Positions 4,408 to 22,115 of a DNA stretch of 64,000 nucleotides are shown here, piece by piece. The translations under genes and the position numbers were made by a program. The notes below the pieces were generated by a model. The model was not told the origin of the DNA. It did not search any database and saw only the letters and a list, made by a program, of their open reading frames with translations. The stretch covers positions 1,474,501-1,538,500 of the forward strand of contig NZ_CAKLBX010000001.1 of NCBI RefSeq assembly GCF_920987055.1. The letters are read 5' to 3'. Each line of letters starts with the position of its first letter. Position 1 is the first letter of the stretch. This stretch comes from Novosphingobium sp. CECT 9465 (lineage in GTDB: Bacteria > Pseudomonadota > Alphaproteobacteria > Sphingomonadales > Sphingomonadaceae).

Positions 4408-4457
4408 CTTGCGCTTACGCGGGCAGAGTTGCACACGAACGCCGACGCAGGACGCGG

Positions 4458-5162: not shown

Positions 5163-5659
5163 CAGGCATCTCCCTCTAAGTCGCGACCACGGCCTTCTTC
5201 TTCGTCCTCGGCGGCCGCCGCGTCCCAGAAGGCAGTGCTCTCGCCGCTGATCTCGCTAAGGAACATCGCCAGTTCCTCGATCATCCCGTCAGGATCGTCG
5301 TCCCCTTCGAACAAGGGAAGATCGCGCCCCTCGAAATCAACCTGGATCTCGCGGACCGGTGCCCCACTTTCGGTTCGCAAAAACGCAGCCAGACGCTCCG
5401 CTTGCTTCTCGCGGATGGGGCGGGAGCGCAGCTTCAGGAAGCTGATGAAATTGCGTGTGTAGCGTTCGAGCTGTTCGTGCGGCGGAAGCATGCCGAGACG
5501 GTCGAAGGGGGCACGTTCGCCGTCCTCGAAATCGTCGCCCAGCGACTCGATGGTCGCCCGGTCCCATTCCCCGTAGCCCGCACGCTGGACCAGCAGGCGC
5601 AGTTCGTCGAAGATCTCCTGCCATTCCCCGTCGCTGAACTCGCTGATATCCACCTGCAT
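5162..5659 (-). CDS. Acidic protein coupled to the PD-(D/E)XK-like nuclease
   Basis: A 165-residue soluble, strongly acidic protein without a family that I recognise. It shows amphipathic helices (WQEIFDELRLLVQRAGYG; ERYTRNFISFLKLRSRP) and ends in an Asp/Glu-rich tail (AAAEDEEEGRGRDLEGDA). An acidic partner coupled to a basic DNA-acting protein could be an inhibitor, adaptor or sensor, but this is inference. Start choice: the ATG at 5659 has GGGAG directly abutting it, while a GTG two codons later (5653) has the same GGGAG at an ideal 6-base spacing. The true start may therefore be GTG 5653. Confidence 0.7.
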   Translation of the reverse strand: MQVDISEFSDGEWQEIFDELRLLVQRAGYGEWDRATIESLGDDFEDGERAPFDRLGMLPPHEQLERYTRNFISFLKLRSRPIREKQAERLAAFLRTESGAPVREIQVDFEGRDLPLFEGDDDPDGMIEELAMFLSEISGESTAFWDAAAAEDEEEGRGRDLEGDA

Positions 5660-5971
5660 CTCCCGCCAACAACCCGCGTGCCGACAGTCCTGGCTTAAAG
5701 GGGCTGGTGCACAAGAGATAGGGATCGCGAACTAAAATATTGGTGAGAAACTCGTCTTCCTGCGCGTCGATTTCAGGTTTGACCTTTGCGGATGGGATTG
5801 AGTGCTTTAGCCGCAGCCCGCGTCAAATTCTTGCCGAGGTTTCGACAAGATCAGGTCTACGCGCAGTTGTGTTGCGCTACGCCCTGTATTTCTGCGCTAG
5901 CCTACCCTCACAAACATCGCCGCTTGCTGATCCGTTCCTTCGCCGGCTCATTGACCGCTCAAGGAGCACAT
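5660..5971. other. Divergent intergenic region between nuclease cassette and virD4
   Basis: 312 bases between the leftward nuclease pair and the rightward coupling-protein gene, so promoters for both should lie here. The only clear element is the ribosome site AAGGAG at 5961-5966. A frame is open through the region in phase with virD4, but it has no start context and unlike composition. I found no convincing -35/-10 pair or repeat. Confidence 0.4.
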
Positions 5972-8038
5972 ATGTCTGCAACCAGGATATTGTGGGGTCA
6001 GATCTGCGCTGTGGTCACGATCGTCTTGTTGTCGGTCTGGTGGGCGACCCAGTGGACGGCGGCCGCCTTGGGCTTCCAGTCCGAACTTGGCGCGCCCTGG
6101 TTCAGCGTTGGCGTCTATCCTGTCTATATGCCGCTGTCCTTCTTCTGGTGGTGGTTCGCATTTGATGCCTATGCCCCGCACGTTTTCGAGACCGGTGGTC
6201 TGATCGCTGCCGCCGGCGGAATCCTTGCCGTCGTGGTGGCGATTGCCATGTCCGTCTGGCGCGCGCGGGAAGCGCGGCGCGCGGAAACTTACGGTTCGGC
6301 GCGCTGGGCGTCTCCCGAAGAAGTCGCCCGCGCCGGGCTGCTGCGCCAGGATGGTGTCGTGCTCGGCAGGTTCGGCAGGGACTATCTGCGCCATGACGGG
6401 CCCGAGCATGTGCTGTGCTTTGCCCCGACGCGTTCTGGCAAGGGCGTCGGCCTTGTCGTACCCACCCTGCTGACCTGGCCGGGATCCGTCATCGTTCACG
6501 ACATCAAAGGCGAGAACTGGCAACTCACCGCGGGTTTTCGCAAAGCACACGGACATGTGCTCCTGTTCGATCCCACCAATCCCGCCTCATCGCGCTACAA
6601 TCCACTCCTCGAGGTTCGGCGCGGAAAATGGGAGGTTCGCGACGTCCAGAATGTCGCCGACGTGCTCGTTGACCCGGAAGGCTCGCTTGAAAAGCGCAAT
6701 CACTGGGAGAAAACCAGCCACGCACTTCTCGTCGGGGCTATCCTCCACGTTCTCTACGCCGAACCCGACAAGACCCTTGCTGGCGTGGCGGCCTTCCTGT
6801 CCGACCCGTCGCGTCCAATCACCGCGGCTCTCAATCTCATGAAGTCGACGCCCCACCTCGGCAAGGACGGTGTCCATCCGGTGGTGGCATCCGCCGCCCA
6901 GGAGTTGCTCAACAAGAGCGACAATGAGCGCTCGGGCGTCCTGTCGACCGCCATGTCGTTCCTTGGCCTCTATCGTGATCCGGTCGTGGCGGAAGTGACG
7001 GGCGCGTCGGACTGGCGGATCGACGATCTTGTCGAGGGGAGGGTGCCAACATCGCTCTATCTCGTGGTTCCGCCCTCGGACATCAGCCGAACCAAGCCGC
7101 TCATCCGGTTGATCCTCAATCAGGTCGGCAGGCGTCTGACCGAGGAGCTTGATGCACGACGCGGGCGGCCTCGCCAGAATCTGCTCCTCATGCTTGACGA
7201 GTTTCCCGCACTTGGCCGTCTCGATTTCTTCGAATCCGCGCTGGCCTTCATGGCGGGCTACGGGATCAAGAGCTTCCTCATTGCCCAGTCACTGAACCAG
7301 ATCGAAAAGGCTTACGGGCCGAGCAATGCGATCCTCGACAATTGCCATGTTCGGGTTGCTTTTGCGACCAATGATGAGCGGACCGCCAAGCGCGTGTCTG
7401 AAGCCTTGGGCACCGCAACGGAAATGCGGGCCATGAAGAACTATGCGGGGCACCGCCTCTCACCATGGCTTGGTCATCTGATGGTCTCGCGCAGCGAAAC
7501 GGCTCGCCCGCTCCTGACACCCGGTGAAATCATGCAGCTGCCGCCAGAAGACGAGATCGTCATGGTGGCGGGCCTGGCGCCAATCCGCGGTCGCAAAGCG
7601 CGCTATTTTGAAGATCCTCGCCTGGCCCGGCGGGTCATGACGCCACCGGTTTTGGCAAAAAGCGAGGAACCGGCGGCGCCTCACGAATGGAGCTTAGTTC
7701 CGTCGGATCATAAGGCTGTGGCGCCGTCCAGCGAAGCGCCAGCTCGGGCGAGCCGGGAAGGGGAAGGATGGCAAGGTGATGGCGCATCCCCGCCTGCCTC
7801 CGGGAACGAGGAAACGGAGGCAGCTGCAGCTGCAGAGGATGGAGGGTTACGCCAGCAGCCTGAACTGCAAGCGCCTGACGAAATGGAACCGACGCCGCGG
7901 GTGCCGGTCAACGAGTTCGATTTTGTCGAAGACGACATGGAAGTGGACGCCGCGCGTCTGCGGCGCGCGAACGACCGGCTGATGTCTGGTACGGCACGGA
8001 CGGCGTCGCTGGACCCCGATGACGGGATCGATCTGTGA
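5972..8038 (+). CDS. virD4: Type IV secretion coupling protein VirD4/TraG
   Basis: A 688-residue ATPase that connects the relaxosome to the Trb channel at the inner membrane. Three hydrophobic segments at the N terminus (about residues 8-28, 45-65 and 78-100) anchor it. The nucleotide-binding domain follows: Walker A CFAPTRSGKGVGLV with K157, a Walker B-like NLLLMLDEFPALGRL, and the typical GYGIKSFLIAQSLNQ and NCHVRVAFATND blocks. The last 150 residues are acidic and low in complexity and may bind cargo. ATG 5972 is fixed by AAGGAG six bases upstream. Its stop overlaps the GTG of the CopG-like gene (GTGA at 8035-8038). Confidence 0.95.
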   Translation: MSATRILWGQICAVVTIVLLSVWWATQWTAAALGFQSELGAPWFSVGVYPVYMPLSFFWWWFAFDAYAPHVFETGGLIAAAGGILAVVVAIAMSVWRAREARRAETYGSARWASPEEVARAGLLRQDGVVLGRFGRDYLRHDGPEHVLCFAPTRSGKGVGLVVPTLLTWPGSVIVHDIKGENWQLTAGFRKAHGHVLLFDPTNPASSRYNPLLEVRRGKWEVRDVQNVADVLVDPEGSLEKRNHWEKTSHALLVGAILHVLYAEPDKTLAGVAAFLSDPSRPITAALNLMKSTPHLGKDGVHPVVASAAQELLNKSDNERSGVLSTAMSFLGLYRDPVVAEVTGASDWRIDDLVEGRVPTSLYLVVPPSDISRTKPLIRLILNQVGRRLTEELDARRGRPRQNLLLMLDEFPALGRLDFFESALAFMAGYGIKSFLIAQSLNQIEKAYGPSNAILDNCHVRVAFATNDERTAKRVSEALGTATEMRAMKNYAGHRLSPWLGHLMVSRSETARPLLTPGEIMQLPPEDEIVMVAGLAPIRGRKARYFEDPRLARRVMTPPVLAKSEEPAAPHEWSLVPSDHKAVAPSSEAPARASREGEGWQGDGASPPASGNEETEAAAAAEDGGLRQQPELQAPDEMEPTPRVPVNEFDFVEDDMEVDAARLRRANDRLMSGTARTASLDPDDGIDL

Positions 8039-8466
8039 AAAAGGCGCCCGTGAAGCGGAGCATTCGCTTGTCGGCGGACCTTGCTCGCCATCTCGCCGAT
8101 CATGCGTCAGCTCGCCGTGTATCGCAGGCTGCCGTCATCGAGGCCGCACTGTCCTCCCACCTCTCGCCAGATGGTCCTGAGCGACTCGAAGCCGCGTTTG
8201 CCCGGCGGCTGGATCGGCTCGGTCGTCAGCTGGACCGACTTCAATGGCATGTCGAACTCTCCAACGAGACGCTGGCGCTCTTCATTCGCTTCTGGTTGAC
8301 GACGACTCCGCCCTTGCCTGATGCCGCGCTCAAAGCGGCCCAGGCCAGTGGCAAAGAACGGTGGGAGCGATTTGTCGAGACGCTCAATCGTCGGATCGAG
8401 CTCGGGCCCCGCTTGCGCGACGATGTCGCGATGGATCGCGACCCGCCTTCATCGCGACCCGGCTAA
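8035..8466 (+). CDS. CopG/ribbon-helix-helix family protein
   Basis: A 143-residue protein starting at GTG 8035, overlapping the virD4 stop. The N terminus VKRSIRLSADLARHLADHASARRVSQAAVIEAAL has the short basic strand plus two-helix pattern of a ribbon-helix-helix DNA-binding domain. The rest is helical, with a hydrophobic stretch (LALFIRFWLTTTPPLP) that may pack or touch the membrane. This gene usually sits between traG and trbB in such ICEs and may regulate transfer or accessory relaxosome function. Here trbB is about 26 kb further on, so the cargo has been inserted directly after it. Confidence 0.8.
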   Translation: MKKAPVKRSIRLSADLARHLADHASARRVSQAAVIEAALSSHLSPDGPERLEAAFARRLDRLGRQLDRLQWHVELSNETLALFIRFWLTTTPPLPDAALKAAQASGKERWERFVETLNRRIELGPRLRDDVAMDRDPPSSRPG

Positions 8467-8760: not shown

Positions 8761-10944
8761 GTGGGGACGATCAATTCAGCAGTCTCTGAGGACACGAACT
8801 CCGTCAGGCTTGGGTTGCCGCGGCTGCAACCATGGATATTGGCACGTTCGGCAATCGCGCGGGCTGTTCTCGCGGTTGTGAGCCTGGTCGGAATGGCGAG
8901 CGGTGCACATGCCACCTGCTGGGCAGGTGGCGACCCGCTGGTGCAGCGCCTGCAGGCCAGCGTCGATACAAGCCCAAAGGCTGCCCTGCCAGCGATTGAT
9001 GCGGCGCTTGCGCGGCTTGGTAAAGCTGAGCCGGATGGGAAGGAGCAAAGAGCTTGGCTGCTGGCGGCGCGTACTGCAGCGCTTGTGGGCTTGCTGCGTT
9101 ATGAGCAGGGCGAAAAGGCCGCACGCGAGGGCTTGGCGGAAGCAGGACAAGATCCTGTCCTTCGGATTGAGCTGCTGGACCAGCTTGTCGCCATATCCTT
9201 CGGACGACCAGCGCCTGAACTGAAATCCATGCTCGATGAACTTGGCCGGTTGCGCACCAAGGTATCTAAAGGGAGTGCGGCTGCGGTCTGTGCTGGCAAT
9301 GGCATGACCCTCCTTCAACGCGCGCTTGGATTAACCGAAGATGCGATGCGAACCGGCGGCGAAGCCTATCGGACAGCCAAGGCGCACAGGCTTGAGGCGC
9401 AGGCCGCCTATATCGCAGTCAATCTCTCGGTTCTGACGCTCGCATCGGGCGATGTCGAGCAGGCCGGTGACCTTGCAAATGAGGCCGCTGACTGGGCGAG
9501 GAATAACGGCTTCACTTATCAGCAATTGCTGGCTGCGTTCATGCAGGCCCGCGTCGCGTCATCCGGCGATCCCGCGCTCGCGGCCGAACGGTTTCTCACA
9601 GCCGCACAATTGTCGCGCCAACTGGGAATCCCATCGGGTGCTGCCGACCAGGGGGCCTGCGGTGCATTGCTGGCGCTCGGAAAGCTTGATGCAGCAGAGG
9701 CTTCTTGCCGACAGGCAGAACGCCACCTTGACCCGTCTGACGAGGCCGCCAGGGTCTATACGGGCAATATCCTGGGTGAAATCGAACTCGCGCGTGGGAC
9801 CCCAGCCAAGGCGCTTGCGCGTTTCGATGACCTTCTCAGCCAGGCTGCCGGCCCAGCCTATCGCTTGGTTGCCGACAAGATCCGGCGCAACCGGGCAACG
9901 GCCCTTGCGCAGCTTGGCCGCCATCGAGAAGCCTATCAGGACCTCAAGACAGTCAATGAGCATATTGTGGCCCGCAGCGACGCCCAGCGCGCCCGCGCTC
10001 TTGCTGATGCGCGAGCACGCTTTGGGTGGGACCGTCAGCGGCTCGCCAACGCTGAACTTGAGCGCGATCTTGCGCGCGCTGCCGCGCGCGACCAGGCACG
10101 CCGGCTCTGGCTCTGGACGGCCGGAGGTTGGGCGGCGTTACTGGCGGCGCTGCTGACCTGGGTCATCGTGACCGGCAAGCGGCATCGGCGCAAGCTCGAG
10201 CGCCTGGCTGACGAGGCTCGGGACATCGCTCGCACAAAGGCCGAATTGCTCGCGAACATGAGCCATGAAATCCGCTCGCCGCTCGGCAGCCTGACGCTCG
10301 CCGCCACGCGCCTGTCGCAGTCGGCCGAAATCCCGGTCGATAGCCGACAGCGCGCCGAGCGGCTTGGCCGCGCGGGCGAACGGCTCATCGGGCTGCTCGA
10401 CGACCTGCTCCTCTTCTCACGGATCGATGCGGGCAGACTGCCGGTTGTGGCAGCGCCGTTCGATCCTCGGCAGCTCCTGCGTGAAACAGCACTTCTGGCT
10501 GAACCCAAGGTGACGGCAGTCGGTGCAAGTCTGCTGGTCGAGATCGATGAAGCGGCCCCGTTGCTCGTAAACGGTGATGCGAACCGCTTGGGTCAGATTC
10601 TGACCAACTTGCTTGACAATGCGGTCCGTCATTCCGGCGCGACGCAGATCATCCTGTCGCTGGTGCCAGCAGAAAACGGGCAATATCGTGTGACCGTTGC
10701 CGACAACGGCATTGGCATTCCCGCAGAACGCCGTGAGCTCATGTTCCAGCGCTTTGCGCAGATCGACGGCTCGGGTGCCTCAAGTGAAGGGTCGGGTCTT
10801 GGCCTTGCCATCTGCAAGGGGCTTGCTGAACTGATGGGCGGCGAAATCAGGGTCGAGGGCGCAGCCCGGGGCGTGCGGATCAGCGTCACCATGCCTCGTT
10901 CGATCGGAAGCCACGCGTCTGCCCCGCTCATGGTAGCCGCGTGA
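8761..10944 (+). CDS. Membrane sensor histidine kinase with TPR-like sensory region
   Basis: A 727-residue kinase. After an export segment (ending near GMASGAHATC) comes a roughly 400-residue periplasmic-type region of TPR-like helical repeats. A single membrane span (LWTAGGWAALLAALLTWVIV) and a short coiled linker lead to HisKA with the phospho-acceptor H502 in NMSHEIRSPLG. HATPase_c follows, with N box LTNLLDNAVRHS, G1 VADNGIGIP and G2 GSGLGLAICKGL. There is no fused receiver domain; the partner regulator is encoded just downstream. The GTG start has AAGGGA 10-15 bases upstream. It ends in a GTGA overlap with a 43-codon ORF. TPR-ectodomain kinases often sense peptides or envelope components; the signal here is unknown. 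Confidence 0.9.
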   Translation: MGTINSAVSEDTNSVRLGLPRLQPWILARSAIARAVLAVVSLVGMASGAHATCWAGGDPLVQRLQASVDTSPKAALPAIDAALARLGKAEPDGKEQRAWLLAARTAALVGLLRYEQGEKAAREGLAEAGQDPVLRIELLDQLVAISFGRPAPELKSMLDELGRLRTKVSKGSAAAVCAGNGMTLLQRALGLTEDAMRTGGEAYRTAKAHRLEAQAAYIAVNLSVLTLASGDVEQAGDLANEAADWARNNGFTYQQLLAAFMQARVASSGDPALAAERFLTAAQLSRQLGIPSGAADQGACGALLALGKLDAAEASCRQAERHLDPSDEAARVYTGNILGEIELARGTPAKALARFDDLLSQAAGPAYRLVADKIRRNRATALAQLGRHREAYQDLKTVNEHIVARSDAQRARALADARARFGWDRQRLANAELERDLARAAARDQARRLWLWTAGGWAALLAALLTWVIVTGKRHRRKLERLADEARDIARTKAELLANMSHEIRSPLGSLTLAATRLSQSAEIPVDSRQRAERLGRAGERLIGLLDDLLLFSRIDAGRLPVVAAPFDPRQLLRETALLAEPKVTAVGASLLVEIDEAAPLLVNGDANRLGQILTNLLDNAVRHSGATQIILSLVPAENGQYRVTVADNGIGIPAERRELMFQRFAQIDGSGASSEGSGLGLAICKGLAELMGGEIRVEGAARGVRISVTMPRSIGSHASAPLMVAA

Positions 10945-11072: not shown

Positions 11073-11737
11073 ACAGAGGGATCACACCCAAGGGTGATGC
11101 GCAGACCGCGTCGCTGCAAGGGACCGCGCATCCGGTCATTCTCGTGGAGGATGACGAGCTGATGCGCGATGAAATTGTCGGCCTGCTCTCCGAGGTCGGC
11201 TATGCCGTGCGCGCTTTTGCGGGCGCAGATCAATTATTTGCGGCCGAACCCGAGCCTTCCGGTGTCATCATCCTGGACTTGCGTCTCAAGGGCCCAAGTG
11301 GCCTGCTGATGCAGCAGAAGCTTGGCCAGCGCGCGGACATCCAGATCATCTTCATTAGCGGTCGTGCCGATGTCGAGGATGCGGTCGCAGCGATGAAGGC
11401 CGGTGCGTTCGAGTTTCTGGTCAAGCCGTTTCGCTCACAGGCTCTAATCGATGCCGTTGGCGGCGCCTTCGACCGGCTTGGGGATGCCAGGGTTGAGATG
11501 AGCCACGTTGAGGCTGTTCGCGCCGCTTACGAAAGCCTCACCGAAACGGAACGCGAGATTGCGTTGCTGCTGGCGGGAGGCCTGCGCAACAAGCAGGTCG
11601 CTTTCATGTCAGGTAAGGCCGAGAACACCGTCAAGGTGCATCGCGCGCGCGTGATGCAAAAGATGGGTGTAAACTCGCTGATCGAGCTGTCGCGGCAATT
11701 GCAGCGGATCGGAATAACGGGCGATGGCTCCGCCTGA
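11069..11737 (+). CDS. FixJ/NarL-type response regulator (REC + LuxR HTH)
   Basis: A 222-residue regulator, the likely partner of the kinase at 8761. The receiver domain has the acidic pair in ILVEDDELMRDE, phospho-acceptor D70 in IILDLRLKG, and the conserved Lys in EFLVKPFRS. The C-terminal LuxR-type HTH is seen in LTETEREIALLLAGGLRNKQVA and ENTVKVHRARVMQKMGVNSL. ATG 11069 is chosen because it opens the receiver domain at the usual distance and overlaps the stop of the small ORF before it. All adhesin-cluster genes that follow lie on the same strand, so it may control them. Confidence 0.93.
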   Translation: MNRGITPKGDAQTASLQGTAHPVILVEDDELMRDEIVGLLSEVGYAVRAFAGADQLFAAEPEPSGVIILDLRLKGPSGLLMQQKLGQRADIQIIFISGRADVEDAVAAMKAGAFEFLVKPFRSQALIDAVGGAFDRLGDARVEMSHVEAVRAAYESLTETEREIALLLAGGLRNKQVAFMSGKAENTVKVHRARVMQKMGVNSLIELSRQLQRIGITGDGSA

Positions 11738-12151
11738 AGCCCAGATTAGCCGTTATGATAAGGGTGTGAATTGCAGGCCGCGCGGATTTCCGTAGCGGCG
11801 ACTCATTCCTGCAGCGTTGTCAGACTGAAACGCAGATGTTGCAATGCGTCATACGTAGCTTGATCTGGGCGGGGACATTCTTTCAATTGCAACCAACCGG
11901 GCAAATAGACGTTCGGAGTCTGGAGCGGTTGCGGGCCTGATCGCGCATGAGGCTGCGAACTGAATCGAAGGGAAATTATCCAATAGCGTCAAGCGCTTAT
12001 GCAACAAACACTGAAACAGAATAACTAGTTCTGTTGCGGCACGCAAGCATCATAGCCGATTTCTCCATTTTTTGCGTGCGTTTTCTTTCGTGCGCGGGGG
12101 TTACGCCTTGTGGATCGCGGAAGAGACCGGTTGATCGTCCCTATTTCCGGG
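11738..12151. other. Convergent intergenic region between regulator and recombinase genes
   Basis: 414 bases between the ends of two convergent genes, with no credible coding sequence. It contains the left recombination-site candidate (12015-12036). On the minus strand it also holds a TATGAT hexamer (plus coordinates 12049-12054) that resembles a -10 box but lacks a good -35. No strong terminator was seen for the regulator gene. Confidence 0.45.
12015..12036 (+). repeat. Left copy of inverted 17-bp site flanking the recombinase
   Basis: Positions 12019-12035 read GAATAACTAG-TT-CTGTT. The same sequence, with AA in place of TT, is present in opposite orientation at 12849-12865, so 15 of 17 bases match. 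This copy also contains a perfect internal inverted repeat, AACAGAA (12015-12021) and TTCTGTT (12029-12035) around a 7-base centre. That geometry resembles a tyrosine-recombinase core site. Its role as a crossover site is inference. Confidence 0.6.
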
Positions 12152-12775
12152 CTACTTGAGGGCTTCTCGCGAAATATCGGGTATTTTCAGCGCATTGATG
12201 CGCCACATGCGACGGGCAATGTTCCTCTCTTCGGGACCCATCGCTGCAGCATAGATGGCGGTTGTGCGCATATCAGCATGGCCAAGCCAGCGCTGGACCA
12301 TGTTCAGCGGAACCTGAGACTGTATGGCTGCCACGCCAAAGCAATGGCGCAGGCCTTTCGGCATGGCGTGTGAGCCATTGAGGTCAACCGATTCCATAAC
12401 CTTGCGGATGCGGCGATAGGCCGTAACGCGCGAGAAGGTCCAAAGTTTAACGGGCTCTTTGCCTTGGCCGATATGTCCGCCAAGGTCATGCACCTCCTGG
12501 AGCAGATCGATCAATTCAGCCGGTACGGGGACAGAGCGGTAGACCCCGCGCCGCCGCTTCTTCAGGCACTCAATGATGATCATGCGATCATGCCGGTCGA
12601 TACTGCTGGCAGTAAGTGAAAGCGCCTCGGAGATCCGACAACCCGTCGCCGAAATGACCCAGCACAAAGTCAAGGTTTCCGGTTCAAACCTTGCAGCAGC
12701 GGAAAGAAACGACCGCCTCTCCGAGTTCGTGAGATATTTGCGTTGGCCATTGGTGCCATAGATCATCTGTTGCAT
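12152..12775 (-). CDS. Minimal tyrosine recombinase (FimB/FimE-sized)
   Basis: A 207-residue tyrosine recombinase made up almost only of the catalytic domain. The complete active-site set is visible: R47 (ATGCRISEAL), a Lys in CLKKRRRG (K72/K73), H136 and R143 (HAMPKGLRHCFG), H166 (RWLGHADMRT) and nucleophile Y175 (TTAIYAAAM). The N-terminal core-binding domain of phage and ICE integrases is absent, and the protein starts directly at the KYLTNSERRSFL helix. This is how FimB and FimE, the fimbrial phase-variation invertases of about 200 residues, are built. It is read opposite to the adjacent adhesin operon and flanked by inverted near-identical 17-bp sites. It is not beside the element end, so it is unlikely to be the ICE integrase. 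Confidence 0.9.
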   Translation of the reverse strand: MQQMIYGTNGQRKYLTNSERRSFLSAAARFEPETLTLCWVISATGCRISEALSLTASSIDRHDRMIIIECLKKRRRGVYRSVPVPAELIDLLQEVHDLGGHIGQGKEPVKLWTFSRVTAYRRIRKVMESVDLNGSHAMPKGLRHCFGVAAIQSQVPLNMVQRWLGHADMRTTAIYAAAMGPEERNIARRMWRINALKIPDISREALK

Positions 12776-12847
12776 CGGAATGCGCCCTTGTTCTGGATGT
12801 CAGCTGATTGGCAGGCCCGCGGACTAAACCGCAATCGCCCAACCATG

Positions 12848-12865
12848 TAACAGTTCTAGTTATTC
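12848..12865 (-). repeat. Right copy of inverted 17-bp site, upstream of the EAL-gene operon
   Basis: On the minus strand this reads GAATAACTAG-AA-CTGTT-A, matching the left copy at 12019-12036 in 15 of 17 bases and in inverted orientation. It lies between the divergent recombinase and GGDEF-EAL genes, 48 bases before the ATG at 12913. Recombination between the two copies would invert an 846-bp segment carrying the recombinase gene. Confidence 0.6.
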
Positions 12866-12912
12866 CGTGTCGGCATGAGGGGGCGGACTCGCCCTCCAAG
12901 CCGGGGGCGTGA

Positions 12913-14274
12913 ATGCGTATCGAACGGGTCCCAACCGGGACGGATGACTGGAGCGGGGCGGCGAGCCGATCGGTTCGCGCTCCGCAAGCGAACGCCGCAG
13001 TGGGTGCCGACCCGGCTCCAGAGATTCTGCTGTTTGCGGTGCGGATCGATAATCTCGATGCCATTGGTGAAACCTACGGCGCGGCTGTCGCAGAGCGGGT
13101 CTCCCGCGAAGTGCAGGGCTTTTTTCGGCAACGCCTTGAGAGTGCGCGCGATCTGGTCGGTGGAGTCGTCGGGCGGAGCCTTGCGGAGTTCGATCTGATT
13201 GTGCGGGGTCGCGCTGTGCCAGCGTTGATGCCGAGGCAAGGGCCGTTCGAGCGTATTGAGGCCTGGATGGCCGCAGCGGCGCGGCTGCCCATTCCGGGGC
13301 CGGGCTGGACTGCGCATGTAAGCTTGTCCTGGTCCTATGTTGAAGCGGACGACTTCTGCGAAGATCGGGAGCTTTTCGATCTCTTGCTGGCGGAGGCGCG
13401 CGGTCGCCTGCCTGGGCTGGTTCGTTCACCTTTGGCTCTCGGGGCGGAGCGTGCGGTGCGCGATATGGCGGCGGCGGCAGCGCTTTATGCCGAGCTAAAC
13501 GCCGCAGGCCTGCAATTCGCCTGGCAGCCGGTCTGTGGGCTCGATGGCGATACGGTTCTGTATCTGCGTGCCTTCATCGCTGCGCCGGGGCGGGATGGTC
13601 AGATCGAGGACCGTCAGTCCGACTATCGCGCGATGGAGCGTCAGGGTCTTGCGCAGGCTTTCGATCAGGCGCTTGTCGCACAAGCGGTCGAGCATCTCGC
13701 GCGCTGCGACAACACGCACTCGGTCTGCATGGCGGTCTCGGCGTCGAGTTTCCGCTCGTCGGCCTGGTGGGATTCTATTCTGGCGCGGCTTGGGTGTGAC
13801 AGGGCGCTTGCGCGTCGATTGTTCATCGCGATCGACTGCGCACAGTGCTTCGTGTCAGCCGGCGAGGCGGTCGCGTTTGCTGACCGTCTGCGCCGTTGCG
13901 GTGCTCGCATTGTTCTGGAGGGGCTCGGCTCCGGCCAGATCGCGATCTCGACGCTGATCGCCTTGCGGCCCGACGTGGTGACGCTTGATGCGCTTTTCCT
14001 TCGGCTGGCAGCGCCGCGCGAGCCGGACGAGCAGCTCTTCCGCCGCATTGTGAGCCTTGCCAGTGCGCTTGCGCCTGCCGTTGTGGTCGAAGGTGTCGAG
14101 GACGCCGCACGTGCAGCTTGCGCGCTGGAGGCGGGGATCCATTGGGGCATCGGTTCCCATCTGGCCCAGCCAAGCTGGCGTGGCCCTTCACGCACCGGGT
14201 CCGGCGCGGCACAGGTCAGCGCTTTCGGCGCGCTCCCACAGTATTTTTCCAGCAGGCGGGAGGGTTCGCAATGA
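12913..14274 (+). CDS. Degenerate GGDEF-EAL protein (probable c-di-GMP effector)
   Basis: A 453-residue cytoplasmic protein. Residues about 35-130 resemble a GGDEF fold, but the signature is reduced to GRSLAEFDLIV. Residues about 185-420 resemble an EAL domain with the catalytic features lost: the EAL motif position reads LYLRAF, the metal-binding Asn strand reads VCMAVSASSF, and the DDFGTG loop reads EGLGSGQ. The late EGVEDA motif (near residue 392) is kept. It is probably a non-catalytic c-di-GMP-binding or protein-binding module. The start ATG 12913 follows GGGGGCG directly upstream. The stop overlaps the next gene (ATGA at 14271). As first gene of the adhesin run, it fits a role in adhesin output control. 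Confidence 0.8.
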   Translation: MRIERVPTGTDDWSGAASRSVRAPQANAAVGADPAPEILLFAVRIDNLDAIGETYGAAVAERVSREVQGFFRQRLESARDLVGGVVGRSLAEFDLIVRGRAVPALMPRQGPFERIEAWMAAAARLPIPGPGWTAHVSLSWSYVEADDFCEDRELFDLLLAEARGRLPGLVRSPLALGAERAVRDMAAAAALYAELNAAGLQFAWQPVCGLDGDTVLYLRAFIAAPGRDGQIEDRQSDYRAMERQGLAQAFDQALVAQAVEHLARCDNTHSVCMAVSASSFRSSAWWDSILARLGCDRALARRLFIAIDCAQCFVSAGEAVAFADRLRRCGARIVLEGLGSGQIAISTLIALRPDVVTLDALFLRLAAPREPDEQLFRRIVSLASALAPAVVVEGVEDAARAACALEAGIHWGIGSHLAQPSWRGPSRTGSGAAQVSAFGALPQYFSSRREGSQ

Positions 14275-14434: not shown

Positions 14435-14629
14435 ATGGCGTCCGGTCAACACATCTTCGGGTCGCAAACCGAAGCGCGGCCTTCGGGCCGCGGTGGCGGG
14501 GGAGGGGCCAAGCCCCACAACCCCAGTCCCTCCCCGTCACATATGGCGCGCTGCTTGCGCGCCTGCGGCCCTTTGTCCGGCGCGTTGGTGCCGGTCCATT
14601 TCAGTCCTGATTGGAGAGACCGCCTATGA
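14435..14629 (+). CDS. Possible 64-residue ORF linking the small membrane gene and the DUF4019 gene
   Basis: An open frame fills the 193-base gap. It can start at ATG 14435, or at GTG 14429, which overlaps the previous stop (GTGA). It ends with a TGA overlapping the next start (ATGA at 14626-14629). The product is Gly/Pro/Ser-rich (GRGGGGGAKPHNPSPSPS) with a CLRAC motif and matches no family that I recognise. The composition looks more like untranslated GC-rich spacer than a folded protein, so only the two overlaps argue for it. Confidence 0.3.
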   Translation: MASGQHIFGSQTEARPSGRGGGGGAKPHNPSPSPSHMARCLRACGPLSGALVPVHFSPDWRDRL

Positions 14630-15204
14630 GGCGTTTACCTTGGCGGCCGGCCTTGCTCGCGCTGCCTCTTGCTGCATTGTCGTCCCTGGCGTTGGGGCAG
14701 ACGGGTTCGGCAAACCAGTCCACGCCTAGTGTGGCTGCTAGCGTCGGCGGTTCGGCAGGCGGCAAATCCGCGCCCGCTGCCGCAGCGCCGGCGCGGTTGT
14801 CAGCCAACTACTTCATGGCACAGGCTTTGCAGATCTCCGAGGCGGCCGGGAACGGTCTGCTCGACGGAATCTACGCGGGTGCTTCGCCGATCATGAAGGC
14901 TGCCCAAGGGCGTGACGCCTTTGTAGCGCAGAGCAGGGACGTTCTGGCGCGCTCTGGGTCGGCAACCGGGCGGGACTGGGTCTCTGTGCGGCGTGAAGTC
15001 GTGCCCGGCGGGCAGCCGCAGGCATCCGGCGCGCCGCCGCCCGGTGACTATGTCGTGGTGTTGATCGGCGCAGAAACCGGCGTGGGCCGGGGGCGGCTCG
15101 AGACCATCACCTTCCATCGGGACAGCGACAACCAGTGGCGTCTGTGCGGCTTTGTCGCAGCGACCCTCGGTCAAACTGCACCTTCCACCAATCCGCAAAA
15201 GTAA
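14626..15204 (+). CDS. Exported DUF4019-like protein
   Basis: A 192-residue protein with a signal peptide (LLALPLAALSSLALGQ) and a C-terminal domain that resembles DUF4019: residues near NGLLDGIYAGASP, RDWVSVRREVVPGG, PPGDYVVVLIGAE and the final ETITFHRDSDNQWRLCGFVA. The DUF4019 role is unknown; it is usually periplasmic. GGAGAG at 14613-14618 supports ATG 14626 over the TTG five codons earlier. The gene lies 44 bases before the autotransporter, so the product may help its passage through the periplasm. The family call is from memory of the pattern and is moderately sure. Confidence 0.7.
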   Translation: MRRLPWRPALLALPLAALSSLALGQTGSANQSTPSVAASVGGSAGGKSAPAAAAPARLSANYFMAQALQISEAAGNGLLDGIYAGASPIMKAAQGRDAFVAQSRDVLARSGSATGRDWVSVRREVVPGGQPQASGAPPPGDYVVVLIGAETGVGRGRLETITFHRDSDNQWRLCGFVAATLGQTAPSTNPQK

Positions 15205-15248: not shown

Positions 15249-18200
15249 ATGAACTACAAGACATATGAGGAGCGCCGGCAGGCACGGCACGGCAATCACG
15301 CGCATTTCGGCAATGCGGTCGGCATCCGGTCGGCGGGCAAGGGTGTGCGGCGGCGGATCATGGCGATCCTGCGCATGTCGTCGATGTATGTGGTGTTTGG
15401 GAAGAAGGCGCGGGTTGGTGCGCTGGGCGTTGGGGCTGCCGTTGCTTCAATCGCTGGGGTCGGGCTTCCGAGCATAGTATATGCGCAGGTTTACAATCAG
15501 GCCACGCCGATCGGGGACGCAAACGCTTCCGCCTTGGACTCCTGCCTCTCCTACAACGAAATATCGGGCCCTACTCTAGCTGGGGTCAGTGGTCCTGCGT
15601 GCAATGCAACCACGACCAAGGCCACGCAAACGGGCTACTCCCTCTTTTTCACCAGTGTATCCGGGGCAAACGCCGACAGTCTTAGTCTGGGCGGGCAGCT
15701 TTATGTAAACACGGGCCAGATCGGGGCTACGGATGTAAGAGGCGGCACCTATTCGCTTCGGATGGGCAGCACTGCGACGCTGAATGCGGCGGCGGGCGTA
15801 AATTCTATCGCAATTGGGTCCGCACAAACTTCAATTTCGAATGGTGGTACATCTCAGGCGACGGTTGCTGGGGCTGAGGCAAGTATTGCCTTCGGAAGTG
15901 GTGCCACTGTGGCAAATGGTGTGGGCTCTTTTGGGGGCATTGCAATCGGTACTGCCGCTACGGTGTCAAACACAATCAACGGCATAGCGATCGGTACTAC
16001 GACGCTCGCTGGAGCCACTGGTGCCACGGCAATCGGTGCAAACAATACCGCCGGAGCCAGTGCCGGAGCAGTAGACAGTATTGCAGTCGGCGGGCAGGCG
16101 GCGGTGGCTGCCTCTGCAACGTCGGGCATCGGTATCGGGCGGGGGAGCGCGGTCAATGTAGCCAAGGGCGTCGCAATCGGTGACGGCGCAAGCGTGGGCG
16201 CCTCCGCGACGGCTGGTTCTCTTGCCATCGGCAGCGGCAGCAGCGTTGCTGCCGCGACCACAGGAACTGCCTACCTGACCGGTGTTGCCGCTCCGGCCAA
16301 TGGCGAAGCGAACTTCGGGACCCGTCGTCTGACCGGCATTGCTGATGGCAAGAACAACAGCGATGCAGCAACCGTTGGCCAGCTCTCGACCGGACTGAGC
16401 ACGGCGAGCAGCAGCTTGGCGGTGTTGTCGACCTCCACTTCGTCGGCGTTCGTGACGACGAACAGCAACGTGACCTCGCTGTCGACCAGCGTGGGCAACC
16501 TCGGCACGAGCCTGAGCACGACGAATGCGAACGTGAGCAACCTGTCGTCGAGCGTTTCGACGGCGACCACGGGCGTGGCCTCGCTGTCATCTGGTCTGTC
16601 TACGGCAAATAGCAATGTCACCTCGTTGTCGACGGGCCTATCGACGGCGAACAGCAAGGTGACCTCGCTTTCGACCGGTGTTGCGAACCTCGGCACGAGC
16701 TTGAGCACGACGAACTCGAACGTGAGCAACCTGTCGTCGAGCGTTTCGTCGGCGACCACGGGCGTGACCTCGCTGTCGACCAGCGTTGGCAATCTCGGCA
16801 CGAGCCTGAGTACGACGAACTCGAACGTGAGCAACCTGTCGTCGAGCGTTTCCTCGGCAACTGCTGGTGTGACGTCGCTGTCGACCAGCATCGGCAATCT
16901 TGGCACGAGCCTGAGCACCACGAATTCGAACGTCAGCAACCTTTCGTCAAGCGTCTCGACGGTAGCCACGGGCGTGACCTCGCTCTCGACCAGCGTCGGG
17001 AATCTGGGCACGAGCTTGAGTACGACCAACTCGAACGTGAGCAATCTGTCGTCGAGCGTTTCGTCGGCAACCGCTGGTGTGACGTCGCTTTCGACAGGGG
17101 TGAGCGGTCTCTCCACTGGGGTGACCTCGCTGTCGACCGCGACAGCGAACCTCGGCACGAGCCTGAGCACGACGAATGCGAACGTGAGCAACCTGTCGTC
17201 GAGCGTTTCGTCGGCGACTGCCGGTGTGACGTCGCTCTCGACGGGGGTGAGCGGGCTCTCCACGGGCGTGACCTCGCTGTCGACTGCGACGGCGAACCTC
17301 GGCACGAGCCTGAGCACGACGAACGCGAACGTGGGCAACCTGTCGTCGAGCGTTTCCTCGGCAACCGCTGGTGTAGCGTCGCTCTCGACGGGGGTGAGCG
17401 GGCTCTCCACGGGCGTGACCTCGCTGTCGACCGCGACGGCGAACCTCGGCACGAGCCTGAGCACGACGAACGCGAACGTGGGCAACCTGTCGTCGAGCGT
17501 CTCGTCAGCGACTGCCGGTGTGACGTCGCTTTCGACGGGGGTCAGCGGTCTCTCCACTGGGGTGACCTCTCTGTCGACCGCAACTGCCAATCTGGGCACG
17601 AGCCTGAGCACGACGAACGCGAACGTCGGCAACCTGTCGTCAAGCGTCTCGACGACTGCCAACAGCGTCAACTCGCTGTCGACAGGTCTTGCGGCGACTA
17701 ACAGCCAGATCACCTCGCTGTCGTCCACCGTTTCGTCGGTTGCCACTGCAGCTGCCGGTGATCGCATCGCGATTGGTGCAAATTCTGTGGCTCCTACTGC
17801 CGGTGGCAACAAGGCTGTAGCGGCAGGCGATGGAGCTTCGGCCGGCGGCAGCCAGGCGGTTGCACTTGGTTCGGGCGCTACAGCCTCGAATACGAAGGCG
17901 ATCGCGATCGGCGCTGGTGCCACGGCGAGCGGTCAGCAGTCGATCTCGATTGGCGACGGCTCGGTCACGGGCGACAACTCGGGCGCCATTGGCGACCCCA
18001 GCACAGTCTCCGGCGCCGGCAGCTATTCGGTCGGCAACAACAACAACATTGCTTCCGATAATGCAGGCATCTTCGGTAACGACGGTGTCATCGTGAGCGG
18101 CGCCAACGGCGCGCGGATTGTCGGTAACGGTAGCTCGATCAGCACGGGTGCCAGCGATGCGATGATCCTGGGCAACAATGCCCTGGTATCGGTCGCCGGC

Positions 18201-21200
18201 GGAGTCGCCATCGGCTCGGGCAGCGTTGCCAGCGTCGGCTCGGGTGCAGTGGGCTGGGATCCCGCAACCGGGGCCGGGTCGGCTTCCTCCAGCGCGGCTT
18301 GGAGGAGCACACTGGGTGCCGTTGCTATCGGCAATGGTTCCACGGCGACGCGGCAAATTACAGGCCTCGCGGCCGGTACGAATGCGACTGACGCAGTCAA
18401 CGTCGCACAGCTGAGCACGTTGTCGACGGCGACGGCTTCGCGCCTGATCTCGGTCTCGACGGCGGCATCGACCGCGACGGCCTCTGGGCTCACCTCGCTC
18501 TCGACCGTTGCATCGACGGGGCTAGCGTCGCTTTCAACCGCAACGGACAGTGGCCTGACGTCGGTCTCGACGGCAGCGTCGACCGCGACGGCCTCCGGCC
18601 TGACGTCGCTATCGACTGCGGGTGCAAGTGCGCTCGGGTCCCTCTCCACCGCGACCACCAACAGCGTGAACTCGCTGTCGACTGGTGTTGCCTCTGCGAA
18701 CAGCGGTGTCACGTCGCTCTCGACGGGCCTGGCCTCGGCGAACAGCAACCTGACCTCGCTTTCGACTTCAACGAACAGCGGCCTGACCTCGGTCTCGACA
18801 GCGGCATCGACCACGACCGCCTCCGGGCTCACGTCGCTCTCGACCGTTGCATCGACGGGCTTGGCGTCGCTCTCCACCGCAACGGATAGCGGCCTGACCT
18901 CGGTCTCGACTGCGGCATCGACCGCGACCGCCTCCGGGCTCACGTCGCTCTCGACTGCGGGCGCAAGTGCGCTTGGGTCCCTGTCCACCGCGACCACCAA
19001 CAGCGTGAACTCGCTGTCGACTGGTGTTGCCTCGGCGAACAGCGGCGTCACTTCGCTCTCGACGGCGACCGACAGCAGCGTGACTTCGCTGTCGACCGGC
19101 GTTGCCTCGGCGAACAGCGGTATCACTTCGCTCTCGACGGGCCTGGCGTCGACGAACAGCAACCTGACTTCGCTCTCGACAGCGACGGACAGCGGCCTGA
19201 CCTCGGTCTCGACGGCAGCGTCGACCGCCACGGCCTCCGGGCTCACGTCGCTCTCGACTGTGGCGTCTACTGGTCTGGCGTCGCTCTCCACCGCGACGGA
19301 CAGCGGGCTGACCTCGGTCTCGACGGCAGCGTCGACCGCGACGGCCTCCGGGCTCACGTCGCTCTCGACTGTGGCGTCTACTGGTCTGGCGTCGCTCTCC
19401 ACCGCGACGGACAGCGGGCTGAGTTCGGTGTCGACGGCGGCATCGACGGCCACCGCCTCCGGGCTCACGTCGCTCTCGACTGTCGCTTCGACCGGCCTGG
19501 CGTCGCTTTCGACGGCAACGGACAGCGGGCTGACCTCGGTCTCGACGGCGGCATCGACCGCCACGGCCTCCGGGCTCACGTCGCTCTCGACCGTTGCGTC
19601 CACTGGTCTTGCGTCGCTTTCGACCGCAACCGACAGCGGGCTGAGCTCGGTCTCGACGGCAGCGTCGACCGCGACCGCCTCCGGGCTCACGTCGCTCTCG
19701 ACTGTGGCATCGACGGGTCTGGCGTCGCTTTCGACGGCAACGGACAGCGGGCTGAGCTCGGTCTCGACGGCAGCGTCGACCGCGACGGCCTCCGGGCTCA
19801 CGTCGCTCTCGACTGTCGCTTCGACTGGCCTGGCGTCGCTCTCCACCGCAACGGACAGCGGTCTGAGTTCGGTGTCGACGGCGGCATCGACGGCCACGGC
19901 CTCCGGGCTCACGTCGCTCTCGACTGTCGCTTCGACTGGCCTGGCGTCGCTCTCCACCGCAACGGACAGCGGTCTGAGTTCGGTGTCGACGGCGGCATCG
20001 ACGGCCACGGCCTCCGGGCTCACGTCGCTCTCGACCGTTGCGTCCACTGGTCTTGCGTCGCTCTCCACCGCAACCGACAGCGGGCTGAGCTCGGTCTCGA
20101 CGGCAGCGTCGACCGCGACCGCCTCCGGGCTCACGTCGCTCTCGACTGTGGCATCGACGGGTCTGGCGTCGCTTTCGACGGCAACGGACAGCGGGCTGAC
20201 CTCGGTCTCGACGGCAGCGTCGACCGCGACCGCCTCCGGGCTCACGTCGCTCTCGACTGTGGCATCGACGGGTCTGGCGTCGCTTTCGACGGCAACGGAC
20301 AGCGGGCTGACCTCGGTCTCGACGGCAGCGTCGACCGCGACCGCCTCCGGGCTCACGTCGCTCTCGACTGTCGCTTCGACTGGCCTGACCTCACTGTCGA
20401 CTGCGACGGAGAGCGGATTGACCTCCGTTTCAACGGCGGCCTCGACAGGCGTTGCATCGCTGTCGACGGGTGTGAGCACGATTTCGACCGGCCTGACCTC
20501 GCTATCGACGGCGACGGAGAGCGGACTTACCTCCGTTTCGACGGCAGCATCGACGGGCGTGGCCTCGCTCTCGACGGGTGTGAGTACGATTTCGACCGGC
20601 CTGACCTCGCTGTCGACCGCGACGGAGAGCGGATTGACCTCTGTCTCGACGGCGGCCTCGACAGGCGTGGCCTCGCTGTCGACCGGTGTGACCTCTCTCT
20701 CGACTGGGGTGAGCTCTCTGTCGACCACCACCGCATCGGGACTGACGTCGGTTTCGACGGCAGCGTCGACCGGGCTGGCTTCGCTCTCGACGTCAACCGA
20801 GAGCGGTCTGACTTCGGTGTCGACGGCTACCTCGAGCGGCTTGTCCTCGCTTTCGACCACCACGGCAGCAAGCCTGAGCACGGTGGCAAGTGACGTTGCT
20901 TCCGTCTCGACGGCGACCTCGTCGGGCCTCGCGTCTCTCTCGACCACGACGGCGGCCAGCCTGAGCACGGTTGCGAGCGAAGTGGCTTCCGTATCGTCTG
21001 CAACCTCGACGGGGCTGGCGTCGCTCTCGACGACCACGGCATCGGGCCTGGCCTCGCTGTCTACTACGACCTCGTCGACGCTCAGCAGTGTCGCCAGTTC
21101 GATGAGCACGCTGTCCACGGCGGTTGCACCGATCGTGCAGCAGGCGGCGGCAGCAGCAGCGAACGGAGGCGGTGCGGTTGCCACCAACATCGGTGGCGCC

Positions 21201-22115
21201 AATGCGGACGGCACGTTGCAGACACTCGGTGGTATCGCTGGCGGCAGCACGCAGACGGCGGGTAACGTCTCCGGTTCCTGCACCACGGCTTCGGGAATCG
21301 ATGCTACGGCTACCGGCGTCTGTGCCCAGGCCAAGGCGACTGGCGCAACTGCCTACGGCTCCAATGCCTTTGCTTCGGACTCCAACGCTACGGCGGTCGG
21401 TTTCCGCTCGTCGGCAACCGGGGACTCGAGCACTTCGATCGGCTATGCCAATATCGCATCTGGCGGTAGCGCCGTCGCGATCGGCAACGCCAACCAGGTG
21501 TCGGGCACCCAGTCCATCGCGATCGGCTACAAGAACGTGGTCACTGGCTCGAACTCGGGTGCCTTCGGCGACCCGAACGTGGTCAGCGGCAATTCGAGCT
21601 ATGCCGTGGGTAACAACAACACCATCGCTTCGAACCGCGTGTTCGTGCTCGGCAACAACGTGAACGTTGGGGCCGGGAATGATGGGGCGGTTGTTCTGGG
21701 CGATGGCAGCACGGCAAGCGGCGCCAACACGGTGTCTGTGGGTTCTGCCAGCCAGACCCGCCGGATCACCAATGTGGGTGACGGCATTGCCGACACCGAT
21801 GCGGCGACCGTGGGGCAGGTGAACCGTGCGACGGCTACGCTCGGCAACCAGATCGTGGGTGTCCAGAATCAGGTCTACGATCTGGCGCGGTCCACCTCGT
21901 TCGGTATCGCCGGTGCCACTGCGATTGGCATGATCCCCGATATTGATCCTGACCAGCGCTTCTCGATAGGCGGCGCTGTCGGCGGGTTCGATGGCTACCA
22001 GGCCTTCGCGCTCGGCTTTACCGGCCGCGTCAGCGAGAACGTCAAGGTCCGGGCTGCTGCCTCGATCTCGGGCGGCAAGTCCACCTACGGCGCCGGCGTC
22101 TCGTTCGGTTGGTAA
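15249..22115 (+). CDS. Giant trimeric autotransporter adhesin (YadA/Hia-like)
   Basis: A 2288-residue surface adhesin of type Vc. The N terminus is a long basic extended signal peptide (MNYKTYEERRQARHG, hydrophobic core near ALGVGAAVASIAGVGL, cleavage near YAQ). A first YadA-like head with repeated (A/S)IAIG strands spans about 150-358. Neck 1 (RRLTGIADGKNNSDAATVGQ) leads to stalk 1 (about 379-836), built of 35- and 49-residue units in perfect heptads. A second head (837-1033, AIAIGAGATASGQQSISIG) and neck 2 follow. Stalk 2 (1058-1960) contains the 37-residue repeat array. A third head (2031-2167), neck 3 (RRITNVGDGIADTDAATVGQ) and the C-terminal membrane anchor (FSIGGAVGGFDGYQAFALG to SFGW) complete it. 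Both stalks are extremely rich in Ser, Thr and Ala. A strong terminator follows. Confidence 0.95.
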   Translation: MNYKTYEERRQARHGNHAHFGNAVGIRSAGKGVRRRIMAILRMSSMYVVFGKKARVGALGVGAAVASIAGVGLPSIVYAQVYNQATPIGDANASALDSCLSYNEISGPTLAGVSGPACNATTTKATQTGYSLFFTSVSGANADSLSLGGQLYVNTGQIGATDVRGGTYSLRMGSTATLNAAAGVNSIAIGSAQTSISNGGTSQATVAGAEASIAFGSGATVANGVGSFGGIAIGTAATVSNTINGIAIGTTTLAGATGATAIGANNTAGASAGAVDSIAVGGQAAVAASATSGIGIGRGSAVNVAKGVAIGDGASVGASATAGSLAIGSGSSVAAATTGTAYLTGVAAPANGEANFGTRRLTGIADGKNNSDAATVGQLSTGLSTASSSLAVLSTSTSSAFVTTNSNVTSLSTSVGNLGTSLSTTNANVSNLSSSVSTATTGVASLSSGLSTANSNVTSLSTGLSTANSKVTSLSTGVANLGTSLSTTNSNVSNLSSSVSSATTGVTSLSTSVGNLGTSLSTTNSNVSNLSSSVSSATAGVTSLSTSIGNLGTSLSTTNSNVSNLSSSVSTVATGVTSLSTSVGNLGTSLSTTNSNVSNLSSSVSSATAGVTSLSTGVSGLSTGVTSLSTATANLGTSLSTTNANVSNLSSSVSSATAGVTSLSTGVSGLSTGVTSLSTATANLGTSLSTTNANVGNLSSSVSSATAGVASLSTGVSGLSTGVTSLSTATANLGTSLSTTNANVGNLSSSVSSATAGVTSLSTGVSGLSTGVTSLSTATANLGTSLSTTNANVGNLSSSVSTTANSVNSLSTGLAATNSQITSLSSTVSSVATAAAGDRIAIGANSVAPTAGGNKAVAAGDGASAGGSQAVALGSGATASNTKAIAIGAGATASGQQSISIGDGSVTGDNSGAIGDPSTVSGAGSYSVGNNNNIASDNAGIFGNDGVIVSGANGARIVGNGSSISTGASDAMILGNNALVSVAGGVAIGSGSVASVGSGAVGWDPATGAGSASSSAAWRSTLGAVAIGNGSTATRQITGLAAGTNATDAVNVAQLSTLSTATASRLISVSTAASTATASGLTSLSTVASTGLASLSTATDSGLTSVSTAASTATASGLTSLSTAGASALGSLSTATTNSVNSLSTGVASANSGVTSLSTGLASANSNLTSLSTSTNSGLTSVSTAASTTTASGLTSLSTVASTGLASLSTATDSGLTSVSTAASTATASGLTSLSTAGASALGSLSTATTNSVNSLSTGVASANSGVTSLSTATDSSVTSLSTGVASANSGITSLSTGLASTNSNLTSLSTATDSGLTSVSTAASTATASGLTSLSTVASTGLASLSTATDSGLTSVSTAASTATASGLTSLSTVASTGLASLSTATDSGLSSVSTAASTATASGLTSLSTVASTGLASLSTATDSGLTSVSTAASTATASGLTSLSTVASTGLASLSTATDSGLSSVSTAASTATASGLTSLSTVASTGLASLSTATDSGLSSVSTAASTATASGLTSLSTVASTGLASLSTATDSGLSSVSTAASTATASGLTSLSTVASTGLASLSTATDSGLSSVSTAASTATASGLTSLSTVASTGLASLSTATDSGLSSVSTAASTATASGLTSLSTVASTGLASLSTATDSGLTSVSTAASTATASGLTSLSTVASTGLASLSTATDSGLTSVSTAASTATASGLTSLSTVASTGLTSLSTATESGLTSVSTAASTGVASLSTGVSTISTGLTSLSTATESGLTSVSTAASTGVASLSTGVSTISTGLTSLSTATESGLTSVSTAASTGVASLSTGVTSLSTGVSSLSTTTASGLTSVSTAASTGLASLSTSTESGLTSVSTATSSGLSSLSTTTAASLSTVASDVASVSTATSSGLASLSTTTAASLSTVASEVASVSSATSTGLASLSTTTASGLASLSTTTSSTLSSVASSMSTLSTAVAPIVQQAAAAAANGGGAVATNIGGANADGTLQTLGGIAGGSTQTAGNVSGSCTTASGIDATATGVCAQAKATGATAYGSNAFASDSNATAVGFRSSATGDSSTSIGYANIASGGSAVAIGNANQVSGTQSIAIGYKNVVTGSNSGAFGDPNVVSGNSSYAVGNNNTIASNRVFVLGNNVNVGAGNDGAVVLGDGSTASGANTVSVGSASQTRRITNVGDGIADTDAATVGQVNRATATLGNQIVGVQNQVYDLARSTSFGIAGATAIGMIPDIDPDQRFSIGGAVGGFDGYQAFALGFTGRVSENVKVRAAASISGGKSTYGAGVSFGW
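16384..17757 (+). repeat. Stalk 1 repeats, 105- and 147-bp units within the adhesin gene
   Basis: Imperfect direct repeats coding for 35-residue (5 heptads) and 49-residue (7 heptads) units. Four successive 147-bp copies begin at about 17077, 17224, 17371 and 17518. Hydrophobic residues (V/L) fall at heptad positions a and d throughout (V-x-x-L-x-x-x-V), indicating a left-handed coiled-coil stalk. Such repeats allow length change by slippage or recombination. Confidence 0.85.
19241..20461 (+). repeat. Stalk 2 array, eleven in-phase 111-bp (37-residue) units
   Basis: The unit start GCTCACGTCGCTCTCGAC recurs at 19241, 19352 and onward with an exact 111-bp step to 20351, which gives eleven in-phase unit starts; the last unit is divergent. 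Each unit codes for 37 residues that split as 11+11+15 (GLTSLSTVAST, GLASLSTATDS, GLTSVSTAASTATAS). The near-identity of codons between copies points to recent amplification or gene conversion. Confidence 0.88.

Follow-up and report, generated by a model that had tools for sequence, protein, structure and literature searches.

The DNA analysed here is a 64-kb stretch (64,000 nucleotides, hereafter the window) of the genome of Novosphingobium sp. CECT 9465. It contains a small element flanked by inverted sites, which lies between a two-component regulatory gene pair and a run of genes leading to a giant adhesin. The main features are as follows (L numbers denote related loci).

8761..10944, plus strand: sensor histidine kinase beside the element; kept in L023, L024 and L073
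10958..11737, plus strand: response regulator of the FixJ/LuxR type, at the element end away from the EAL gene; kept in L023, L024 and L073
12013..12037, minus strand: D site, on the side of the recombinase 3' end; inside to outside GCAACAGAA [CTAGTTA] TTCTGTTTC, spacer at 12022-12028
12022..12862, no strand: predicted invertible segment of 841 bp, from outer spacer edge to outer spacer edge; its inversion is predicted from relatives
12043..12046, minus strand: TTGC in a constant position, 9 to 6 bases in from the D site; could be the -35 box of a promoter with its -10 starting in the spacer
12049..12054, minus strand: TATGAT, candidate -10 box, which would face the EAL gene after inversion
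12152..12775, minus strand: tyrosine recombinase, 207 aa, catalytic domain only, entirely within the segment
12847..12871, plus strand: U site, on the side of the recombinase 5' end and facing the EAL gene; inside to outside GTAACAGTT [CTAGTTA] TTCCGTGTC, spacer at 12856-12862
12913..14274, plus strand: EAL-domain protein, 453 aa, first gene of the putative target operon; EAL and DDFG motifs degenerate
14611..15204, plus strand: DUF4019 protein
15249..22115, plus strand: trimeric autotransporter adhesin, 2288 aa, C-terminal YadA anchor

An earlier reading made from the sequence only had placed a run of genes ending in a giant adhesin behind the element. Indeed, the run from 12913 starts with an EAL-domain gene and reaches a YadA-anchored protein of 2288 aa, in whose last 371 aa a domain search found the YadA anchor and YadA head repeats. 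We call the arrangement sequenced in the window, with the recombinase gene pointing away from the EAL-adhesin operon, orientation A, and the reverse orientation B. The assembly of the window genome contains one copy of the element, in orientation A only.

Upstream of the kinase, the region 2545-8466 encodes a relaxase-like DUF3363 protein, a TraG/VirD4-type coupling protein and a small RHH protein. Therefore, the element seems to ride on a conjugative element. Coupling-protein and RHH homologues also adjoin the related element at L062. A comparison of the window DNA with plasmids gave no near match except for 102 bases of a response regulator. Three DUF2827 genes (22255-26244) lie behind the adhesin, and at L070 DUF2827 genes directly adjoin a related element. 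Between the response regulator and the left site, a block at 11840-11920 is conserved in the window, L023 and L024 and is absent from L073.

Crossover sites and recombinase

The sequence-only reading had reported 17-bp inverted sites at both ends of the element. The pattern GAATAACTAGWWCTGTT, with up to three mismatches, had exactly two matches in the 64-kb window, at 12019-12035 (plus) and 12849-12865 (minus), where 0.05 were expected, and two matches occurred in none of 100 shuffles; the sites are thus exactly where they had been placed and are unlikely to have arisen by chance. In the whole 4.39-Mb genome, a 19-letter pattern with at most two mismatches found only these two sites. The best 25-bp inverted pair around the recombinase matched at 20 of 25 positions, a score reached by 0 of 100 dinucleotide shuffles of the flanks. 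As in an inverton, inverted sites flank the segment at a level above chance.

The full site is 25 bp long and consists of a 9-bp arm, a 7-bp spacer and a second 9-bp arm. Read from inside to outside, it comprises a 6-bp arm like GTTACA, three bases, the spacer, three bases and an arm like TGTAAC. The window spacer is CTAGTTA at both ends, and the TT/AA mismatch between the two sites falls in the three arm bases beside it. Identical spacers with differing bases in these three positions were found in the window and in relatives alike. The possibility that the 15/17 match reflects a defect in the crossover core was ruled out, since the mismatch sits in an arm. Both sites of L023 and L024 are perfect 17-bp inverted copies. 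In the window, the arms of the U site are no longer as symmetric: TT replaces AA, and 4 of 9 arm pairs are left, versus 6 in L023 and L024. This loss could slow inversion.

The spacer varies between elements (TTGGTTA, TTGGCTA, TTGTCTA, TTGGATA, CTAGCTA and others) and is the same within an element. In a scan based on the arms only, spacers were alike at 7/7 positions in 18 of 19 elements, a partly circular figure as this first set had been picked for inverted matches; none of 30 other recombinases exceeded 4/7. Therefore, 18 later loci, found independently by protein search alone, were scanned by the same method. Eight had 7/7 identical spacers and six had no site pair; in L120 and L133 the contig ended where the D site would lie, and L117 and L123 had a D site with the U site not resolved. 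The pairs of L025/L098, L055, L059 and L069 rest on the arms model, their raw 25-bp inverted scores being reached by 6 to 38 of 100 shuffles and thus not above them.

The recombinase gene (12152-12775) lies inside the segment (12022-12862), as had been claimed. Its reading frame is intact, and Pfam Phage_integrase matched residues 14-178 (7.3e-20), which bears out the description of a 207-residue tyrosine recombinase with the catalytic domain only. The further claim that all active-site residues are present held for R47, K72, R143, H166 and Y175; the HxxR histidine, however, is Lys140, and this position is Lys or Arg in 25 of 25 aligned family members. The positions were assigned by alignment to XerD, and R47, K72, K140/R143, H166 and Y175, which we take to be the catalytic residues, make up the set of a tyrosine recombinase. 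No serine resolvase domain of the Hin/Gin type was detected in the window recombinase, Phage_integrase being the only domain found.

The proposed likeness to FimB/FimE concerns layout and size only. The NCBIfam invertase models PRK09870 and PRK09871, presumably of the Fim type, scored 36.3 and 33.8 bits, where 221 and 222 are required. Membership in the FimB/FimE family was rejected on these scores and on the position of the recombinase gene inside, not outside, the invertible segment. The XerA and XerD models outscored the invertase models. The XerC and XerD cut-offs of 330 and 335 bits were far above the scores obtained (59 and 55), and the two-domain structure is missing. Among solved structures, XerD and archaeal Xer were nearest.

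A quick tree of 54 recombinases (midpoint root, SH-aLRT support only, one short row omitted) placed all 22 site-paired recombinases (the window and 21 others) in one group of 27 with an SH-aLRT value of 90. This group also contains four second recombinases and a single-site one. At L056, L058, L059, L025 and L055, a second related recombinase without a site pair of its own lies outside the element, 0.5-10 kb away. Matches to the family are sparse: 19 of 397 genomes of the bacterial family (E 1e-35), 8 of 195 in the genus and 17 of 94 in the genus of genome G771. Viral contigs gave only two remote matches (24-25% identity).

Among the 30 unflagged recombinases, 18 have one upstream site scoring at least 15 and one has such a site downstream, a score reached by 37 of 2000 random stretches. 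Partition or replication genes lie near the recombinase in seven of the eight plasmid regions viewed, which represent the nearest outgroup. These observations suggest that the switch recombinases may derive from a plasmid resolution module, and the single-site outgroup suggests a route from such a module to an inversion switch. XerC/XerD and single-site plasmid resolution modules share with the window element two arms around a short spacer, in addition to the structural resemblance to XerD and archaeal Xer. The outgroup relatives, however, have one site beside the gene, whereas the window element has two inverted sites and its recombinase has no N-terminal DNA-binding domain. From the plasmid neighbourhoods and the strong single sites, one might regard the window element itself as a module by which the conjugative element resolves dimers or integrates, with no switch at all. 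For resolution, however, a dimer must carry sites of like direction, while here inverted sites flank the gene and inverted arrangements were observed in relatives; we consider this explanation extremely improbable.

Orientation of the element in related genomes

In L023 (Novosphingobium pokkalii) and L024 (Novosphingobium sp. SG919), the two closest relatives, gene order and orientation are those of the window: the histidine kinase and response regulator genes come first, then the element, and after it the EAL gene, the DUF4019 gene and the beginning of the adhesin gene. The site pair is conserved beside the recombinase in both of them. The sequence-only reading had proposed aligning related elements for the two orientations. 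Both orientations do occur, with breakpoints at the sites; together with the conserved site pair, this passes, in relatives, the refutation test that the sequence-only reading had set. In one genus, L057 and the loci L063, L064, L066 and L067 have collinear flanks of 84-89% identity around an element of about 900 bp that is inverted between them, and the matches overlap by 25-28 bp at the sites. The inner arms move with the inverted element and the outer arms remain with the flanks. The element is also inverted between L062 and L150, within flanks that are 93-94% identical over 13 kb, with overlaps of 17 and 19 bp. Between L149 and L155 it is again inverted, the alignment stopping short of the sites, and L150 and L151 match in one flank and, in the reverse sense, in the element (70%).

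Both orientations were also found in the draft assembly G975, on contigs C85 and C89. Contig C85 starts with the complement of the spacer, crosses U and continues into the EAL flank. Contig C89 comes in from the far flank, also crosses U and stops in the D spacer, at the very base where C85 begins. The two contigs have 908 bp in common with two mismatches and diverge right after the U spacer. Genome G967 carries the same locus intact in orientation B, the C85 flank being 98.8% and C89 99.98% identical. A mixed culture is the simplest reading of the contig pair; two loci or an assembly fault are also possible.

The two orientations thus occur in relatives, and the assembly of the window strain contains one. 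Since the family of the element is found in both orientations, the window element probably flips to switch surface structures. We conclude that it is most likely a self-contained invertible switch, with a probability of about 0.8 judged from sequence comparison.

The element of L073 is reversed relative to the window, with the response regulator and EAL neighbours kept. Its recombinase (9971-10542) is split over three frames, and the element is possibly locked in orientation B. Downstream of its EAL gene, L073 shows a 152-aa frame and a dehydratase gene on the opposite strand, and no adhesin gene was detected there. Such decay of a family member, together with the two-base change in the inner arm of the window U site, not seen in L023 and L024, and the single orientation of the window assembly, would fit a former switch whose decayed copy is now fixed in orientation A while its relatives flip. 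However, the recombinase frame and the aligned catalytic residues of the window element are intact and its spacers are identical. Moreover, L057 and L063, which carry the element in opposite orientations, tolerate differences between U and D at the same arm places as in the window. A locked window element is therefore rather unlikely, and a working switch remains our preferred reading.

Related cassettes lie ahead of unlike operons, and the L062 and L150 elements are only 78% identical inside their more similar flanks, as if the cassette had been exchanged or were evolving faster. If the inverted sites were the ends of a small mobile element, the recombinase would move it between places, and both observations would fit. 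However, homology to L023 and L024 continues through the sites into both flanks, the window genome contains a single copy, and identical asymmetric spacers in inverted sites favour inversion over insertion. Mobility of this kind appears very improbable.

Sequences at the element ends and predicted mode of action

The TATGAT box described by the sequence-only reading is present on the minus strand at 12049-12054. Its place is conserved in kin, 17 to 12 bases inside the D site (TATGAT in the window, L023 and L024, TATAAT in L100 and TAGAAT in L073); it has, however, no good -35 partner in the window, and a standard sigma-70 scan of 11700-13000 found no promoter-like site (0.9 expected). All 15 elements profiled have a TTG at 9-7 bases inside the D site. 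At the U end, TTG reaches 2 of 15 at most, whatever the offset, and no triplet of any kind exceeds 4 of 15. The later set included 10 loci whose D site could be recognised; all 10 had the TTG, and the other eight lacked it. The TTG at the D end precedes the terminal TA of the spacer by 17 bases. A distance of 17 bases is the spacing of sigma-70 promoters. The crossover site itself may therefore form part of a promoter through the fixed TTG, although its fixed place could serve the recombinase instead.

According to the mechanism we propose, the recombinase encoded inside the 841-bp segment would bind the two inverted 25-bp sites, cut and exchange strands across the identical 7-bp spacers, and turn the segment around. 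In orientation A, the recombinase gene is directed away from the EAL-adhesin operon, and the operon, with nothing like a promoter facing it, would presumably be OFF. In orientation B, the segment end with TATGAT and TTGC would face the operon start, 42 bases beyond the site, and the operon would presumably be ON. That the window recombinase performs the inversion and that the window copy still flips, as well as the ON state and the transcription start, we infer in each case from sequence.

Inversion can also change the reading frame of the recombinase. Of 24 loci, 11 would give the recombinase an in-frame upstream ATG in arrangement B, exactly 31 bases beyond the end of the element and often preceded by an SD-like ggtaag, and 12 are without it; the 11 include two natural B loci, and five of them come from one genus. 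The later set has an ATG at -31 in 5 of 18 loci. In arrangement A, an in-frame TGA occurs at -10 in 9 of 24 loci. The recombinase frame runs out through the D site in 9 of 19 loci, so that its tail would be altered by the flip too. In the window the frame is closed inside the element, and a flip leaves the enzyme unchanged.

The same switch could be wired differently, with a fixed promoter in the far flank. In orientation B, the recombinase, the EAL gene and the adhesin would then form one translated unit, and in orientation A an untranslated antisense RNA would be cut short. The outside start codons point in this direction, and a Rho-dependent switch is reported for Clostridioides difficile (PMC7446863). 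However, half of the 24 loci have no outside start and the 11 with it are weighted towards one genus. This wiring is inapplicable to the window, L023, L024, L073 and L100, because their recombinases have an upstream stop inside the element. We regard it as doubtful, and retain for the window a putative promoter carried by the segment end.

Known switches and the operons behind the elements

Invertible switches are known mainly from enteric bacteria, Bacteroidetes and clostridia. We found no paper on an invertible switch in sphingomonads in full-text searches of the open-licence literature, and a prior description elsewhere is possible. A genome-wide survey reports none in its four Alphaproteobacteria (PMC5903667).

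The Hin segment of Salmonella has short inverted end sites and a surface structure downstream, like the window element. In both, the recombinase gene lies within the inverted segment, as described for Hin in the survey (PMC5903667). Hin is, however, a serine recombinase, whereas the window encodes an Xer-like tyrosine recombinase with 9+7+9 sites and a target headed by an EAL gene. The best reading is a Hin-like layout with an Xer-like recombinase. FimB/FimE with fimS, and ipuS, share with the window a small tyrosine recombinase with the catalytic domain only and inversion before surface genes. Inversion of ipuS, which in uropathogenic E. coli drives an autotransporter and a LuxR-type regulator, shortens IpuA by 11 residues (PMC6083910). 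The recombinases of fimS and ipuS are encoded beside the switch, which measures 260 bp for ipuS, whereas the window segment contains the whole gene. In C. difficile, RecV-dependent inversions are reported ahead of genes for c-di-GMP enzymes and flagella (PMC9286219, PMC7446863). One distant RecV recombinase works many switches in trans, while every cassette of the present family has its own recombinase.

An EAL gene starts at the element and is transcribed away from it in all 30 distinct loci where it was detected, 21 in orientation A and 9 in B. This count combines 21 loci searched within 3 kb and 9 loci with 1.5-kb flanks, takes L025/L098, which is one contig, once, and includes L117 and L120, whose second site could not be placed or is cut off. 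The searches detected no EAL gene within 3 kb at L059, L068, L070, L004, L006 and L007, nor in the 1.5-kb flanks of L121, L123 and L133. The greater frequency of A had suggested a resting state, but this reading was given up, as the genus searched later had five B and four A loci.

The operons behind the elements are diverse. Spore-coat-U, usher and chaperone genes follow the elements of L054, L059 and L100, and the Sphingomonas parapaucimobilis plasmid NZ_CP155750.1 carries a kinase, a regulator, the recombinase and an EAL gene followed by spore-coat-U chaperone-usher pili. The L062 element is followed by CsgG (curli-type) and those of L057 and L063 by a two-partner secretion domain. DUF4402 lies behind L068 and an RND pump near L069, in addition to the DUF2827 genes at L070. 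At L056, O-antigen ligase and chain-length genes lie some kilobases downstream.

Taken together, and only tentatively, a plasmid-type recombinase with its single site may have evolved, in a sphingomonad clade of recombinases, into a portable switch cassette with two sites that rewires unlike EAL-headed surface operons. In about half of the loci examined, the flip would also rewrite the recombinase, with an outside start codon 31 bases beyond the segment in B and a stop in the outer arm of the site in A, so that the form or amount of the enzyme would be set by the state. The window would then belong to a simpler branch, whose enzyme is unchanged by the flip. Such a family would allow sphingomonads to switch adhesin, pilus, curli-type and exopolysaccharide genes on and off stochastically. 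The predicted control is tied to a c-di-GMP-type protein and lies, in one case, on an apparent conjugative element. Small self-inverting cassettes of this kind would also be useful genetic tools.

The acidic residues of the EAL and DDFG motifs, whose meaning we assume from other EAL-domain proteins, are present in the EAL proteins of L054, L056, L057, L060, L062, L063 and L100. They are gone from the window EAL protein, which may therefore sense c-di-GMP rather than cut it.
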